Source of the DNA: Psychroflexus aestuariivivens
Lineage (GTDB): Bacteria; Bacteroidota; Bacteroidia; Flavobacteriales; Flavobacteriaceae
Reading direction: 5' to 3'
Length of the DNA: 57,654 nt
NCBI RefSeq assembly: GCF_004010055.1
Contig: NZ_RQVT01000013.1
Coordinates: 1-57,654 of the forward strand
Part shown: positions 3,458 to 44,089 of the stretch, piece after piece
How the letters are laid out: every line of letters begins with the position of its first letter
How positions within the stretch are numbered: the first letter of the stretch is position 1
Notes under the pieces: generated by a model
What the model was told of the DNA's origin: nothing
Databases searched by the model: none
The model's input: the letters and a program-made list of their open reading frames with translations, nothing else
Made by a program: the position numbers and the translations under genes

Positions 3458-4283
3458 TCAAATCCCGATTTTCAAGCTGGTCGCCACTTGTTTTCTCTTG
3501 TTTTTGGCGATTTACAGCCCACGGCTGAAAGCTATTTATGTTACTTATTTGGTTTTTGCTGCTTTAGCATACGTGATCATCGATCGTGATTTTTTCAAAA
3601 AAACTTACTTCTGGTTAATTGTTCTTGGACTTTTGATTCCACGTCTATATGCCAGTTTCCTTTTTATTGGAAACCATTATTTTGTGATGATTTATATGAT
3701 TCTATTATTTCTCATCGTATCGTTTTATCAAGATAATGCAGAGAAAATATTTTCACGTAATGCGACTGTAATTTTGGTTTTAATAATGGGGTTTGCTGTT
3801 CTCCAAAAATTATTGGTGCCTGACTACCTCAATGGCACTTCTTTGGCATATCTAGGATATTCAGGTAAGATTTTTAAATACGTTTTTTATTTCAATGAAG
3901 AATATCGAGATATTTTTTATGAAAACGCCGTAAAAATGTCAGAACTCTACAAGTATCCTATTAGCGAAAATCCTAGAGTTCAACTTGAACCTATTTTCAA
4001 AAATTTCCCTCAAGTCATTATTTGGTTTTCATATCTGACATTAATTGCTGAAATACTATTCATTGTGGCTCTATTTATTAAAAAACAATGGATCAAACAC
4101 GGATTTATAATTTTCTTTTTACTCAGTCTTTTAGTAACTAGAGAAGAAACGGGATTTTTATCCATGCTTTGCATCTTGCTGATGATGCATATCGAAAAGC
4201 AAAACACTTTGTATAGAGCAGCTTATCTCGGGATTTTCATATTATGCCTTTCGTTGATAATCGTCGGTAAAGGTGAATTATAA
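3432..4283 (+). CDS. Unknown polytopic membrane protein
   Basis: This 283-residue protein has about seven to eight hydrophobic segments (for example LVATCFLLFLAIY, VIDRD then YFWLIVLGLLI, VMIYMILLFLIVSFY, ATVILVLIMGFAVLQ, FIIFFLLSLLVT and GIFILCLSLIIVG). A soluble loop at about residues 130-190 is rich in aromatic and charged residues. It starts inside the end of the preceding gene, and its 3' end overlaps the convergent response-regulator gene by 6 bp. The arrangement is faintly reminiscent of HTTM-type membrane proteins, but I cannot confirm a family or function. Confidence 0.8.
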   Translation: MKQLINRINQIPIFKLVATCFLLFLAIYSPRLKAIYVTYLVFAALAYVIIDRDFFKKTYFWLIVLGLLIPRLYASFLFIGNHYFVMIYMILLFLIVSFYQDNAEKIFSRNATVILVLIMGFAVLQKLLVPDYLNGTSLAYLGYSGKIFKYVFYFNEEYRDIFYENAVKMSELYKYPISENPRVQLEPIFKNFPQVIIWFSYLTLIAEILFIVALFIKKQWIKHGFIIFFLLSLLVTREETGFLSMLCILLMMHIEKQNTLYRAAYLGIFILCLSLIIVGKGEL

Positions 4284-4943
4284 AAAGCCACGTTCCTTGG
4301 CCTTTTCAATCAGGATCTTGTCGTTTCGGTCAGGAATATTGAAAAATAATTTTAATTGCTTTTTTCTTTTTTCAACAGAACTCAGTGATAAGTTCATATT
4401 TTCAGGGATATTTTTTGTCAGAATACCTTGAGACAGTAAGTACAGAATTTTTCTATCTTCTTCGTCTAACTCATGCGCATACTCGATGGTTTGCTTCATC
4501 ATGCGCTGAACCGTATTGCTATGGTAAGACTTGCCCAAAAATAAGCTTTGCATGGCCTGCATGAGAATTTCTGGGTTGGTATCGGATTTTACTAGCAAGC
4601 TATCTGGATCTAAGCGTTTCATCACATTAAGCACTTTGTAATTGTTTTCTAACATTGTGCAAATCATTATTTTAGCTTGTGGTTGCTTTTTTCTAGCCAG
4701 AAGCGCCAAATCTTCACCAGAATTGTATTTTTTATCAGGAGAACCTGGTAGAGAAAGATCTAAACTAATCAAATCATACTTGATATTTTGATTTTTAATA
4801 AGTTCAGCAGCGTCTTCACAATTCAGAGCAGAATCTGAAGAATATGTAGTATTTCTATCTTCTGCAATAATATCGAGAGCCTGGGTAAATCCAGCGACAA
4901 TCATTGGATGATCATCTACAATTAAAACTTTATAATGTGCCAT
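4278..4943 (-). CDS. NarL/FixJ-type response regulator
   Basis: Residues 1-130 are a receiver domain: acidic pair DDHP at 10-13, phosphoacceptor Asp62 in LISLDLSLPG, the Thr/Ser region ICTML and Lys118 in LLVKSD. Residues 150-215 match the place and length of a LuxR-type helix-turn-helix (EDRKILYLLSQGI...SSVEKRKKQLKLFF), but the usual conserved positions are degenerate. The gene lies 6 nt after the sensor kinase gene in the same operon, so it is almost certainly the kinase's partner. It is the best candidate to bind the tandem palindromes upstream of the operon. Confidence 0.88.
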   Translation of the reverse strand: MAHYKVLIVDDHPMIVAGFTQALDIIAEDRNTTYSSDSALNCEDAAELIKNQNIKYDLISLDLSLPGSPDKKYNSGEDLALLARKKQPQAKIMICTMLENNYKVLNVMKRLDPDSLLVKSDTNPEILMQAMQSLFLGKSYHSNTVQRMMKQTIEYAHELDEEDRKILYLLSQGILTKNIPENMNLSLSSVEKRKKQLKLFFNIPDRNDKILIEKAKERGFL

Positions 4944-4949
4944 AAATAA

Positions 4950-6968
4950 TTAGTAAATGGGTATGAAAATAGTAATTTTTGTGCCTTGTCCTGCTTTTGA
5001 ATCAATATTTATTTCACCATTAACCTCATCGACACGATTGCGAATATTCTTCAAACCAATACCTGGCTTTTTGTTGCTATTGAAGCCTATTCCATCATCT
5101 TGGATTTCTATATTTAAACCGTCTTTTCCTTTATCATAAGCGAAAGAAAAACTTATGAAATTAGCATTAGCGTGTTTCTGAATATTCCTGATTGATTCTT
5201 GTAAAACTCTATAAACATGCATCTTGATAACAGAAGAAACTTTTGTCCAATTGACATCATCATCTACTGTTACTTTATGCGACTCTAAAATATTTTGCTT
5301 TTCTAATAAATCCTGAATAAGTCCGCTGAAATCTTTTTGATCTTCAAAATAAGTATTGGAAAGTTCGTGAGATAAACTTCTGATTTGGCTTTCAATATTC
5401 ATGAGATTATCTGTCATCTCACCAAACTTTTTATCGCCTTTAATTCCAATTTTATATTTATAAAACATCAAATTCATCCGGTTGGCATAAAGTTCTGTTA
5501 GAATGTGATCGTGGAGTTCTCTGGCGATCCTATCTCGTTCTTCTTTTCTTCCCTCATCTTTTCTCGTTTTTTGACTCAACATCAATTCGTAGATTTTTTC
5601 ATCTGCGACTTTTTGGTCACGCTCCAAGGACAAGGCTTTATTTCTGGAACGTTGCATGAAAATTATAAAAATAGATGAGCCAACTAAAATTACTAATGAA
5701 GAAACTATAAAAATCATAGTTTGTCGCTCTTCAAGTAACTGTGCGCGTTCTATTACTTCATCGGTTTCAAAGCGAATTCGCTCAAACTTGTTTCGTATTT
5801 TACGCTCATCAATTTGTAAACTGTCACTTAAATTGATGTAAGCTTCTGTAAACCTGAAACTTTCTTCTGGCTGAAGTTCTGCCAGTAGTTTCCAAGACGC
5901 CAAAATATCTCGGTTATTGTTGTTAGATTTTGCCGTTAAGTTAGCACGTTTGGCATATTCAATAGCGGTTGAAGTGTCGCCAACTGCTACATAAAATTGT
6001 GCAAGGTGAATCTGATTGATAGCAATCCCACTGACATGATTAATTCGCTTTCTGATTTCTAAAGCTTTTTTCATATCTTCAGAAACGTTTTCGGTTTCCC
6101 CTGTTTCTAAACGATTGAAAGATAAATTATCCAAAGCCATGGCATATAACTCAGGATCACGCTCTTCAAGATTTTTAGTGGATAATGTGCGTCGGTAATA
6201 TTTTATAGCTTCCTTAAAATCTCCATCTTTTTCATAAACATTGCCTAAGTTATTAAAAGATGCAGCAATAAGCAGTTCATTGTTGTCAACTTTACCAAGT
6301 GCCTGCATGGCGTTTTGATGATAGCGTTTTGCGACTTCGAAATTTTCTAAATTGTAATTGACAATCCCCAACAAATTATAGCATCTATACAATAACCTGT
6401 AATTCTTAATTTTTTGTGCGAGTTCAACTGATTGTATCAAATTAATTTCAGAACCAATAAAGTCTTTGACTTTACTCTGAACAAGCGCTAAGTTGTAAAT
6501 TACATTAGATAGTATCTCTGTTTCATTAATTAATTCAAGATCTTTTCTAGCTTTACTATAGGCAAAATAGGCACTATCATTTTCAGACCGAAATAAATGA
6601 TAATCTCCTAAATCCCAATTGAATCTAGCATTATTAATCGTGTCATTGTATAATTTTGATAAGTTTAATCCACGTTGATTAGTCGATTTAAAATCCTTAA
6701 GATGTCTTTGATCTAAATACTCTTTTGATATAAATTTTAAGTATTTGATCTTAAGACTGTCATTATCAATCTGATCGATTAAACCAACAACATTATCAAA
6801 ATATTTTTTTTTCTCTGAAGAATTATTCGTCTCTTCGGCTAAATTGACATTTGAGATTATTTTTTTTCTAATATTTTGAAATTCTGGATTCGATTCAGTT
6901 TGTACTTGCTCATTTTGACAAGAGAGCAAAAGTAAAATACCAGCAAAAATTAGAATATAATATTTCAA
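4950..6968 (-). CDS. TPR-containing lipoprotein sensor histidine kinase
   Basis: The 672-residue protein begins with a lipoprotein-like signal (ILLLLSCQ). It then has tetratricopeptide repeats (about residues 110-375, e.g. ASFNNLGNVYEKDGDFKEAIKYYRR), a transmembrane helix at about 418-438, and a short linker. The dimerisation/phosphoacceptor region of HisKA_3 type has RERDRIARELHDHI with His486. An HATPase domain occupies the last 110 residues, with motifs QESIRNIQKHA, IQDDGIGF, GIGLKNIRNR and GQGTKITI. It should sense an extracytoplasmic signal through the TPR domain and phosphorylate the adjacent NarL-type regulator. The signal is unknown. Confidence 0.92.
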   Translation of the reverse strand: MKYYILIFAGILLLLSCQNEQVQTESNPEFQNIRKKIISNVNLAEETNNSSEKKKYFDNVVGLIDQIDNDSLKIKYLKFISKEYLDQRHLKDFKSTNQRGLNLSKLYNDTINNARFNWDLGDYHLFRSENDSAYFAYSKARKDLELINETEILSNVIYNLALVQSKVKDFIGSEINLIQSVELAQKIKNYRLLYRCYNLLGIVNYNLENFEVAKRYHQNAMQALGKVDNNELLIAASFNNLGNVYEKDGDFKEAIKYYRRTLSTKNLEERDPELYAMALDNLSFNRLETGETENVSEDMKKALEIRKRINHVSGIAINQIHLAQFYVAVGDTSTAIEYAKRANLTAKSNNNNRDILASWKLLAELQPEESFRFTEAYINLSDSLQIDERKIRNKFERIRFETDEVIERAQLLEERQTMIFIVSSLVILVGSSIFIIFMQRSRNKALSLERDQKVADEKIYELMLSQKTRKDEGRKEERDRIARELHDHILTELYANRMNLMFYKYKIGIKGDKKFGEMTDNLMNIESQIRSLSHELSNTYFEDQKDFSGLIQDLLEKQNILESHKVTVDDDVNWTKVSSVIKMHVYRVLQESIRNIQKHANANFISFSFAYDKGKDGLNIEIQDDGIGFNSNKKPGIGLKNIRNRVDEVNGEINIDSKAGQGTKITIFIPIY

Positions 6969-7231: not shown

Positions 7232-7239
7232 CAAATTTA
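7232..7239 (-). promoter_or_regulatory. Promoter -7 element of the two-component operon
   Basis: Read on the minus strand this is TAAATTTG, a match to TAnnTTTG. It lies 42 nt upstream of the small lipoprotein start codon and 21 nt downstream of the proximal palindrome. No good -33 motif is present, which fits activator dependence. Confidence 0.65.
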
Positions 7240-7260
7240 GAGCATGGAGAAAGTTTAGAA

Positions 7261-7299
7261 TTACGGTTCAACCGTAAAATAGTTACGGTTTTCCCGTAA
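7261..7299 (-). promoter_or_regulatory. Tandem palindromic operator
   Basis: Two 17-bp inverted repeats lie here: TTACGGTTCAACCGTAA at 7261-7277 and TTACGGTTTTCCCGTAA at 7283-7299. They are separated by 5 nt, so centres are 22 bp apart (two helical turns). With the -7 element at 7232-7239, the proximal site is centred near -41 and the distal near -63, class II activator positions. The same arrangement recurs at 43476-43514. The adjacent NarL-type regulator is the obvious candidate ligand. Confidence 0.7.
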
Positions 7300-7401
7300 A
7301 TATTTTCATAATTATTGCTAAAATGTAGCTTATTTGTAGTATTTGTAGATTTTAATACCAGAAATGTTAAAAACTGAAGTCAATAATCTAATAGAAATAG
7401 A

Positions 7402-43475: not shown

Positions 43476-43514
43476 TTACGGTTTTACCGTAATTATTTTA
43501 CGGGCGAACCGTAA
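43476..43514 (+). promoter_or_regulatory. Tandem palindromic operator, second copy
   Basis: Two 17-bp inverted repeats lie here: TTACGGTTTTACCGTAA at 43476-43492 and TTACGGGCGAACCGTAA at 43498-43514. They are separated by 5 nt, centres 22 bp apart. The proximal edge is 21 nt from the TAAATTTG element at 43536, exactly as at 7232-7299. The same regulator should bind both, most likely the NarL-type regulator encoded at 4278-4943. Confidence 0.7.
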
Positions 43515-43535: not shown

Positions 43536-43543
43536 TAAATTTG
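43536..43543 (+). promoter_or_regulatory. Promoter -7 element of the DUF4304 gene
   Basis: TAAATTTG, identical to the element of the two-component operon, lies 24 nt before the ATG at 43568. No -33 motif is evident. Confidence 0.65.
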
Positions 43544-43567: not shown

Positions 43568-44089
43568 ATGATAGCGATAAATCAACAACTTAAGATTCGT
43601 GAAGAGGTACTAAACCCGCTTCTAAAAGCAGCTGGTTTTAGTAATGATGGTGAAATGTGGTGGAAATCTTATGATGAATTTTCCCTTGTTTTGAATATAC
43701 AAAATTATTGGTGGAGCACAGATGATCAAGTTGATTTTAGAATTAATCTTGGGCTAATGATTCCGCCAATTAAAAATGCAATAGAACAAAAACCTGAGTT
43801 GACTGATTTGGCAGTTTGCGTTTCTCAAGATTGTTTTATGAAAGAAAATAGGCAATTTCATAAATTCAAAAATAGTATCGGTTACACAATAAAGACTACA
43901 GATGATTACCAAGATGTTTCAGAATTCATTAAAAAGGATTTGATTGAAGAAATTCTTCCTAAATTTTTTAGTCAAAACACTTTGGAAAAATGTATCAATT
44001 TCTATAAAGAAGTTCCATTTTGGAATAACCGTTTAGAAAGATTGATTTTAGAACAAAAGTTCAGATCCATTCAAAATATGGCGTGTTAA
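43568..44089 (+). CDS. DUF4304-like protein
   Basis: The 173-residue soluble protein fits DUF4304: an N-terminal helix (EEVLNPLLKAAGFSNDGEMWWKS), then strands typical of the family (FSLVLNIQNYWWSTDDQVDFRINLGL), and a C-terminal helical part. The function of the family is unknown. ATG 43568 is chosen; an in-frame TTG at 43517 lies upstream of the -7 element and cannot be used from that promoter. It is preceded by the second tandem palindrome promoter, so it is probably a target of the two-component system. Confidence 0.8.
   Translation: MIAINQQLKIREEVLNPLLKAAGFSNDGEMWWKSYDEFSLVLNIQNYWWSTDDQVDFRINLGLMIPPIKNAIEQKPELTDLAVCVSQDCFMKENRQFHKFKNSIGYTIKTTDDYQDVSEFIKKDLIEEILPKFFSQNTLEKCINFYKEVPFWNNRLERLILEQKFRSIQNMAC

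Follow-up and report, generated by a model that had tools for sequence, protein, structure and literature searches.

The analysed stretch of DNA (hereafter the window) covers 57,654 nucleotides of the Psychroflexus aestuariivivens genome and contains a minus-strand operon of three genes preceded by two palindromes of the form TTACGG(N5)CCGTAA. The features of this locus, listed from the upstream end of the promoter to the last gene of the operon, are as follows.

7283–7299, no strand: distal palindrome TTACGGTTTTCCCGTAA, centre 7291, predicted at about -64 of the operon promoter
7261–7277, no strand: proximal palindrome TTACGGTTCAACCGTAA, centre 7269, predicted at about -42 of the operon promoter
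7240–7260, minus strand: 21-nt spacer, of equal length in most promoters of the candidate regulon and without a -33 TTG
7232–7239, minus strand: putative -7 box TAAATTTG, of the sigma-A type of Bacteroidota, consensus TAnnTTTG (available text of PMC9723704)
7010–7189, minus strand: first operon gene, a 59-aa lipoprotein-like ORF (MKKFIGIF...SACSPETF)
4950–6968, minus strand: sensor histidine kinase with a TTG start, TPR repeats, HisKA_3 and HATPase_c, and a lipobox-like N-terminus as read from the sequence
4278–4943, minus strand: NarL/RcsB-type response regulator (receiver and HTH), the proposed binder of the palindromes

The palindromes lie 22 bp apart centre to centre, the whole pair covering 39 bp, and every element of the original prediction, from the 22-bp period to the 21 nt separating the pair from TAAATTTG, was found at its place in the sequence. 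Because the sigma-A -7 box of Flavobacterium psychrophilum spans -12 to -5 (PMC9723704, available text), the palindrome centres are predicted at -42 and -64, and the proposed position near -41 proved correct to ~1 bp. The lack of a -33 motif was likewise borne out, as no TTG occurs where the spacer begins. With a TTG within the six nucleotides that open the spacer region in just 11/54 promoters of the genus and 5/45 of the family, the missing -33 element is a general trait. Two in-phase sites at -42 and -64 with rigid spacing constitute an activator geometry. The layout would fit one activator beside the polymerase and another, two helical turns upstream, facing the same side of the DNA, and the rigid 21-nt spacing with a centre at -42 appears compatible with an activator role of the predicted binder.

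The regulator's receiver domain matches PF00072 (7.7e-09, 36.1 bits versus a cut-off of 30.2), and its D62, T96, and K119 are invariant among 13 homologs. The Pfam GerE model was absent from the regulator's matches at 0.01. In the AlphaFold model (mean pLDDT 90.9, pTM 0.70), the C-terminal domain is helical, and the best full-length fold matches retrieved by Foldseek were RcsB bound to promoter DNA, spr1814, LiaR, and VraR. By sequence, the solved relatives are RcsB, NarL, and VraR, with RcsB chains nearest (8e-14). The modelled protein combines an N-terminal receiver bearing the Asp, Thr, and Lys with a C-terminal HTH, which are the defining features of NarL/FixJ (LuxR-HTH) regulators. A domain search of the kinase returned no receiver or phosphotransfer domain. 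The 59-aa ORF matched no Pfam family at 0.1; a look-alike lies behind the equivalent promoter in seven further species of the genus, and the lipoprotein gene behind the operon promoter appears decayed in two genomes (G199 and G210).

Beyond the operon, we examined the distribution of the palindromes in the window and the genome. Five single palindromes occur in the window at up to 2 mismatches, compared with a shuffle mean of 0.85, and 0/100 shuffles reach five. Four of these five form two exact pairs, at 7261–7299 and 43476–43514, the latter belonging to a second promoter:

43476–43492, no strand: distal palindrome of the exact pair
43498–43514, no strand: proximal palindrome of the exact pair
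43536–43543, plus strand: putative -7 box TAAATTTG, likewise 21 nt downstream
43568–44089, plus strand: gene for a 173-aa DUF4304 protein (Pfam 1.3e-11), a candidate regulon member

The genome (3.1 Mb, 64 contigs) holds 11 exact palindromes per strand, versus 0 for a reversed-pattern control. All 11 sit in six pairs, five exact and one with 1 mismatch, and the reversed pattern again returned 0; the pair search pattern fixed the 22-bp period beforehand. The motif scan that had been proposed as a check recovered further pairs, each with a -7-like box at 21 nt. Read on the better-matching side, the six boxes agree with TAnnTTTG at 6, 6, 6, 5, 5, and 4 of the 6 fixed positions.

Window 7261, minus strand: box TAAATTTG, before the lipoprotein-kinase-regulator operon
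Window 43476, plus strand: box TAAATTTG, before the DUF4304 protein gene
C61:23895, plus strand: box TATGTTTG, before a CA-repeat leader and then a lipoprotein-like 175-aa ORF
C20:12793, plus strand: box TTAATTTG, with a GC-rich hairpin and T run ~60–90 nt on and no ORF of 60 aa immediately downstream on the plus strand
C48:98000, minus strand: box TATTTTTA, before a 118-aa ORF
C48:71345, minus strand: box GTAATTTG, with no clear gene found

An identical element, AGCAATAATTATGAAAATAT, abuts the distal palindrome at window positions 7300–7320 and likewise at C61:23895, with a similar one at C48:71345.

Across the genus, pairs with up to 3 mismatches were retrieved from 10/27 genomes (3 to 12 per genome; control 0), and an ortholog of the regulator (at least 65% identity) is present in exactly those ten, i.e., in 10/10 genomes with pairs and 0/17 without. 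Among the other 17 genomes, six encode distant homologs alone (26–37%) and eleven have none at E 1e-20. Given that the ten regulators form one clade, this co-occurrence may reflect few events. Nine of the ten ortholog-bearing genomes carry a pair and a 6/6 box upstream of the regulator; G210, the remaining one, has a pair followed after 21 nt by TACATTTG ~3.7 kb upstream of the regulator gene (L221), slightly beyond the stretch used for that count. A DUF4304 look-alike with an equivalent promoter is found in 8/10 species, counting the window's own and seven others. These patterns bear on whether a different protein, such as a paralogous LuxR/NarL-type regulator or an unrelated palindrome binder, occupies the pair and controls the operon while the operon's own regulator acts elsewhere. 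Paralogs are indeed available, one genome having as many as 5 at E<=1e-20, but the sites track the ortholog of the operon regulator in 10/10 versus 0/17 genomes of the genus, and we regard such a binder as quite unlikely. Judging from these sequence comparisons, the operon's own regulator very likely uses the palindromes as its operator, and they mark a regulon.

Whether that regulator would activate was considered from the spacing of the promoters. We compiled 68 distinct pairs from the ten genomes, chosen on palindrome score alone (66 of the 67 scan pairs, the one at G200:C1:66499 scoring too low, and two weaker pairs from L129). A box matching at least 5/6 positions lies at 21 nt in 54/68 pairs, compared with 0–6 at spacings of 8–20 and 22–35, and in 14/68 neither side offers a good box at 21 nt. 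Repression, or mere modulation, of the promoters by the bound regulator would be conceivable from the proximal palindrome, which ends at -34 and could hinder RNA polymerase, and from the boxless pairs (14/68 in the genus). However, the scarcity of TTG at -33 (11/54 genus and 5/45 family promoters, at sites whose selection for a spacing table had partly used the 21-nt box) implies that the promoters probably need help, and in-phase sites at -42 and -64 with rigid spacing are the mark of an activator. We therefore hold a repressive or modulating role to be unlikely and activation to be the better description.

To extend the comparison, a set of 199 Flavobacteriaceae genomes, nearly one per genus, was searched. 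Pairs at up to 3 mismatches were found in 16/199 (control 0), and all 16 genomes fall among the 125 that encode a homolog of the regulator at E 1e-20. Of 15 pair loci inspected, one of them from the window's genus, 12 have the regulator gene ending 39–90 nt upstream of the pair. A weight matrix applied to 38 regulator loci from other genera, mostly the top of the similarity list rather than a random draw, found relaxed pairs behind 31 of these regulator genes. For three genomes represented among the 38 (G154, G148, and G168), a pair had been found beforehand, adjoining the regulator in G154 and G168. The count of 31/38 includes L116, where only a poor site with a poor box lies behind the gene, and misses L133, whose site is apparent in the earlier inspection of that locus. 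Three further loci (L118, L123, and L137) have a single palindrome at the proper distance, and L127, L131, and L141 have no site behind the regulator gene. The proximal palindrome is the better preserved across the family, the distal one often being worn.

The box lies at exactly 21 nt in 29/31 of these behind-gene pairs, while each of the other spacings between 5 and 39 gives 0–1, and this table is the fair one because the box was unused in picking the sites. Fixed spacing also bears on the idea of a mere repeat family without regulatory function, whether REP-like or left over from mobile elements. The motif is multi-copy, with up to 12 pairs per genome; its distance to the -7 box is nonetheless constant (54/68 in the genus, 29/31 in the family), different genes lie behind it, and look-alike promoters precede equivalent genes across species. 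The repeat-element reading was rejected on the 21-nt spacing and is scarcely credible beside that of an operator.

Outside the site-bearing lineages, Kordia, Galbibacter, Cochleicola, and others encode homologs of ~40–43% identity without good sites, and several Kordia operons carry a poor copy of the site upstream of the kinase, with 4/6 boxes. At two loci (L042 and L043), pair variants with CTGCGG and CGATGG half-sites lie ~3.5 kb upstream of the regulator, before a different gene.

In other genera, the promoter often sits directly behind the regulator gene and precedes what looks like the gene of a conserved, terminator-ended RNA of ~100 nt. After the box, a body of ~55 nt with the layout TATCAACA...AATTAATTAATCCCTC...TTTGTTGA...TAATAGCAA leads into a hairpin and T run; the conserved motifs of the body read TCAACA..AATTAATTAATCCCTC..TGTTGA..AATAGC. 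By rule, a terminator-like hairpin is present in 43/45 RNAs, compared with 6/225 dinucleotide shuffles, and its arms vary widely among genomes yet keep their complementarity. The molecule appears as one hairpin with a C-rich loop, CCCTC, plus the terminator. In the 5′ hairpin, 94.6% of cells are paired; no covariation was found in the alignment and the pairs barely vary, so the argument for this hairpin is one of sequence conservation, and the structure is plausible. The consensus body showed no ATG and has closely spaced TAA, and the family RNA is apparently non-coding.

A covariance model of the RNA body was built from 41 sequences and used to search the family at E 0.01, retrieving matches in 55/199 genomes, 14 of the 55 from outside the model. 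Coordinates compared by hand place, in each of the 55 genomes, a match 90–297 nt behind a regulator gene on the same strand. Of ten previously unexamined loci external to the model, 10/10 carry the proximal palindrome followed after 21 nt by a box matching 5/6 positions or better, and the pair scored above 5 in 9/10; the RNA therefore leads back to the operator. One genome, G109, carries a second tandem copy 417 nt behind the regulator. Its locus (L024) shows, from 1501 to ~2100, at least two copies and the start of a third, with palindrome pairs of their own. In the order, the RNA was found in 5/296 genomes, all five Flavobacteriaceae, the share of other families among the 296 not being given.

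The proximity to the regulator gene, 90–297 nt upstream on the same strand, would also suit a transcript tail, a leader, or a tiny coding gene in place of a trans-acting small RNA (sRNA). Against this, operator and box give the RNA a promoter of its own, its body is conserved, and the arms of its terminator differ yet remain complementary, while the consensus lacks ATG and has close-set TAA and G109 bears the second tandem copy. A tail, leader, or coding origin is accordingly improbable, and we treat the RNA as a candidate sRNA.

Fifteen loci carrying the RNA (12/20 sources of one scan and 3/20 of another) were compared with Rfam 15, and no match over the RNA reached the gathering threshold; the other matches in those scans were tRNAs and one Flavo-1 RNA, away from the RNA. 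That Flavo-1 RNA (RF01705, 44.2 bits, cut-off 42) lies at 5959–6032 (+) of L147, near the kinase gene of G168. A permissive search of five loci gave two overlaps with the RNA, both taken as chance: RF00079 at 22.9 bits against a cut-off of 40 (E 2.8), and RF00840 at 24.2 bits against one of 54 (E 0.89). A seed search with the reverse complement of TTAATTAATCCCTCAA in six genomes at up to 2 mismatches gave 68 matches, counting forward and reverse and including 6 that are the RNA genes themselves, versus 47 for the reversed control, and no conserved sRNA target was called from it. A literature search whose coverage lacked most subscription journals brought up no recognised report of the operator or the RNA.

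Within the window's genus, the model found no match to the family RNA at E 0.1 in any of the 10 regulator-bearing species; two matches at E 0.03–0.05 came from species without the ortholog and were taken as chance. Several other putative transcripts accompany the operator in this genus. A second, unrelated short RNA, CATAACTA..CAAAATTTCATCTGATTTTGAGACCGTTCCAACGAAAA (with variants) followed by a GC-rich terminator, lies under an equivalent promoter in 7 species (L224, L176, L183, L189, L209, L213, and L219) and is possibly the genus's substitute for the absent family RNA. Leaders with ACACAC repeats, an odd conserved feature, occur behind the promoter at L167, L170, L172, L175, L178, L186, L216, L217, and the window genome's own C61:23895 (L226), with CGCGCG in place of ACACAC at L175; wherever an ORF is visible, they precede a small lipoprotein-like gene. 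A long conserved leader, AAGAGAAAGCTCCT..GAAGCTTCTCCCGTAAAGGCATGAA..CATACACTTCACTGTG..TTTTCATGAGATG..CAACTTCT, is present at L179, L182, L191, L194, L195, L197, L214, and L220 and in part at L168 and L129, with several copies in some genomes; it had no Rfam match at gathering at L168, L182, L191, L194, L197, L220, and L129. Pairs lacking a good box on either side share a conserved AGCAATAAT-type flank (L181, L190, L196, L202, L210, and L223; similar at L177 and L180), which suggests a different promoter type or arrangement.

We also compared 95 regulators (three duplicate loci, L111, L243, and L036, were dropped). The recognition-helix pattern S.S[ASTG][IV]EKRK[KR] is present in 45/45 regulators with a downstream site and 10/12 with an upstream site, versus 0/30 without a site and 0/8 of the Kordia type with a weak site; the pattern was composed after inspecting the alignment, and the site groups also reflect descent. 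The signature is missing from two regulators whose pair lies 3.5 kb upstream. Some labels were assigned by hand: thirteen loci as downstream-site, where the automatic rule took an overlapping match or a stricter cut, L231 as upstream site, and nine Kordia-type loci as weak. In the tree, the 45 sRNA-linked regulators share a single group with only one further row, L245, whose palindrome is misshapen (46 rows in all). The window's genus forms a separate long-branched clade, and site-less regulators lie between it and the sRNA-linked group. From this topology, the binding code may be ancestral with several losses, or it may have arisen or been kept only in the genus clade and the sRNA-linked group. 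A helix signature that tracks the sites, and sites that adjoin the ortholog of the operon regulator in many other genera, argue further against a foreign binder and for the operon's own regulator.

The original prediction that the regulator binds its own promoter and switches on the operon with its regulon is supported by these comparisons: the 10/10 versus 0/17 co-occurrence, the pair upstream of the operon in 9/10 genomes and in G210, the sites behind the ortholog at 31/38 loci of other genera, and the helix signature. We conclude with considerable confidence that the regulator would bind as tandem dimers at about -42 and -64, switching on its own operon together with a small regulon, and that elsewhere in the family its output would be a small RNA. 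In such a system, the lipoprotein and the TPR kinase would sense an envelope or periplasmic cue, and the phosphorylated regulator would settle as two dimers on one helix face, at about -42 and -64. It could then bring RNA polymerase to promoters that lack a -33 element. The targets would be its own promoter, giving positive autoregulation, the DUF4304 gene, lipoprotein-like genes, and short terminator-ended RNAs. For many other Flavobacteriaceae, the conserved output would be the ~100-nt RNA made from the equivalent promoter directly behind the regulator gene; in the window's genus, where the family RNA is absent, the operator sites lie on other genes.

Operators and sRNA circuits are little known in Bacteroidota. 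Here, the operator grammar is legible (paired palindromes with a 22-bp period, a 21-nt spacer, TAnnTTTG, and no -33 element) and would predict the regulon genome by genome while assigning it to one regulator. It also leads to an sRNA family without an Rfam entry in 55/198 sampled genera. The larger finding is one operator grammar before a conserved small RNA gene behind the regulator across much of the family: the same operator stands before the sRNA in some lineages and before the system's own operon in another. Direct tests become possible for both the binding code of the regulator and the RNA's function.

Several characterized systems resemble parts of this arrangement. The ComA operator of Bacillus subtilis is TTGCGG-N4-CCGCAA; ComA is likewise a LuxR/NarL-type regulator, and its half-site is near-identical to the one here, but the spacing is N4 rather than N5 and the regulon is unrelated. 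Within the same family, Flavobacterium psychrophilum has sRNAs including Rfp18, which differs by its description in having a third stem-loop, with no regulator link given in the available text (PMC9723704). FimS/FimR of Porphyromonas gingivalis is also a Bacteroidota two-component system, and the FimS model matches the TPR-to-linker part of the kinase; at 76.4 bits versus a cut-off of 600 (NF053520), however, the kinase is not a FimS equivalog. FimR binds promoters directly, and the available text on that system describes neither a tandem palindrome nor an sRNA (PMC1974823).

In its working, the system would resemble those of the GacA-type (GacS/GacA, BarA/UvrY) and RcsB regulators. According to the accessible part of one source, NarL-type regulators of the former kind activate the RNAs RsmY, RsmZ, and CsrB, and RcsB activates the sRNA RprA (PMC7602753). 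The regulator here scores 37.8 bits versus the UvrY/SirA/GacA cut-off of 280 (NF007018) and is not an equivalog, and its RNA is an apparent single C-rich-loop hairpin with a terminator located behind the regulator gene. GacA recognises a palindromic upstream site, and the sRNAs of that system titrate CsrA/RsmA by means of repeated GGA loops. In the Rcs system of Enterobacterales, the lipoprotein RcsF acts on the input side. A lipoprotein is predicted on the input side here as well, and by both sequence and fold, the solved structures nearest to the regulator are those of RcsB. The differences are that the regulator reaches 61.7 bits versus the RcsB cut-off of 235 (NF008098) and is not an RcsB equivalog, that a plain HisKA_3 kinase with TPRs stands in place of RcsC/RcsD, that the operator differs, and that the RNA has no Rfam match reaching the cut-off. 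Being below the cut-offs for both RcsB and GacA, the system should be filed under neither despite its similar working. We lean toward viewing it as a hitherto undescribed, RcsB–RprA-like switch spread through this family of Bacteroidota, built from a lipoprotein, a TPR kinase, and a NarL-type regulator. Its ancestral main output would have been a dedicated trans-acting sRNA, bearing a C-rich loop and encoded directly behind the regulator, and the switch would have been rewired in the window's genus through loss of the RNA, placement of the operator on the system's own promoter, and recruitment of other short RNAs and lipoproteins under the same rigid promoter.
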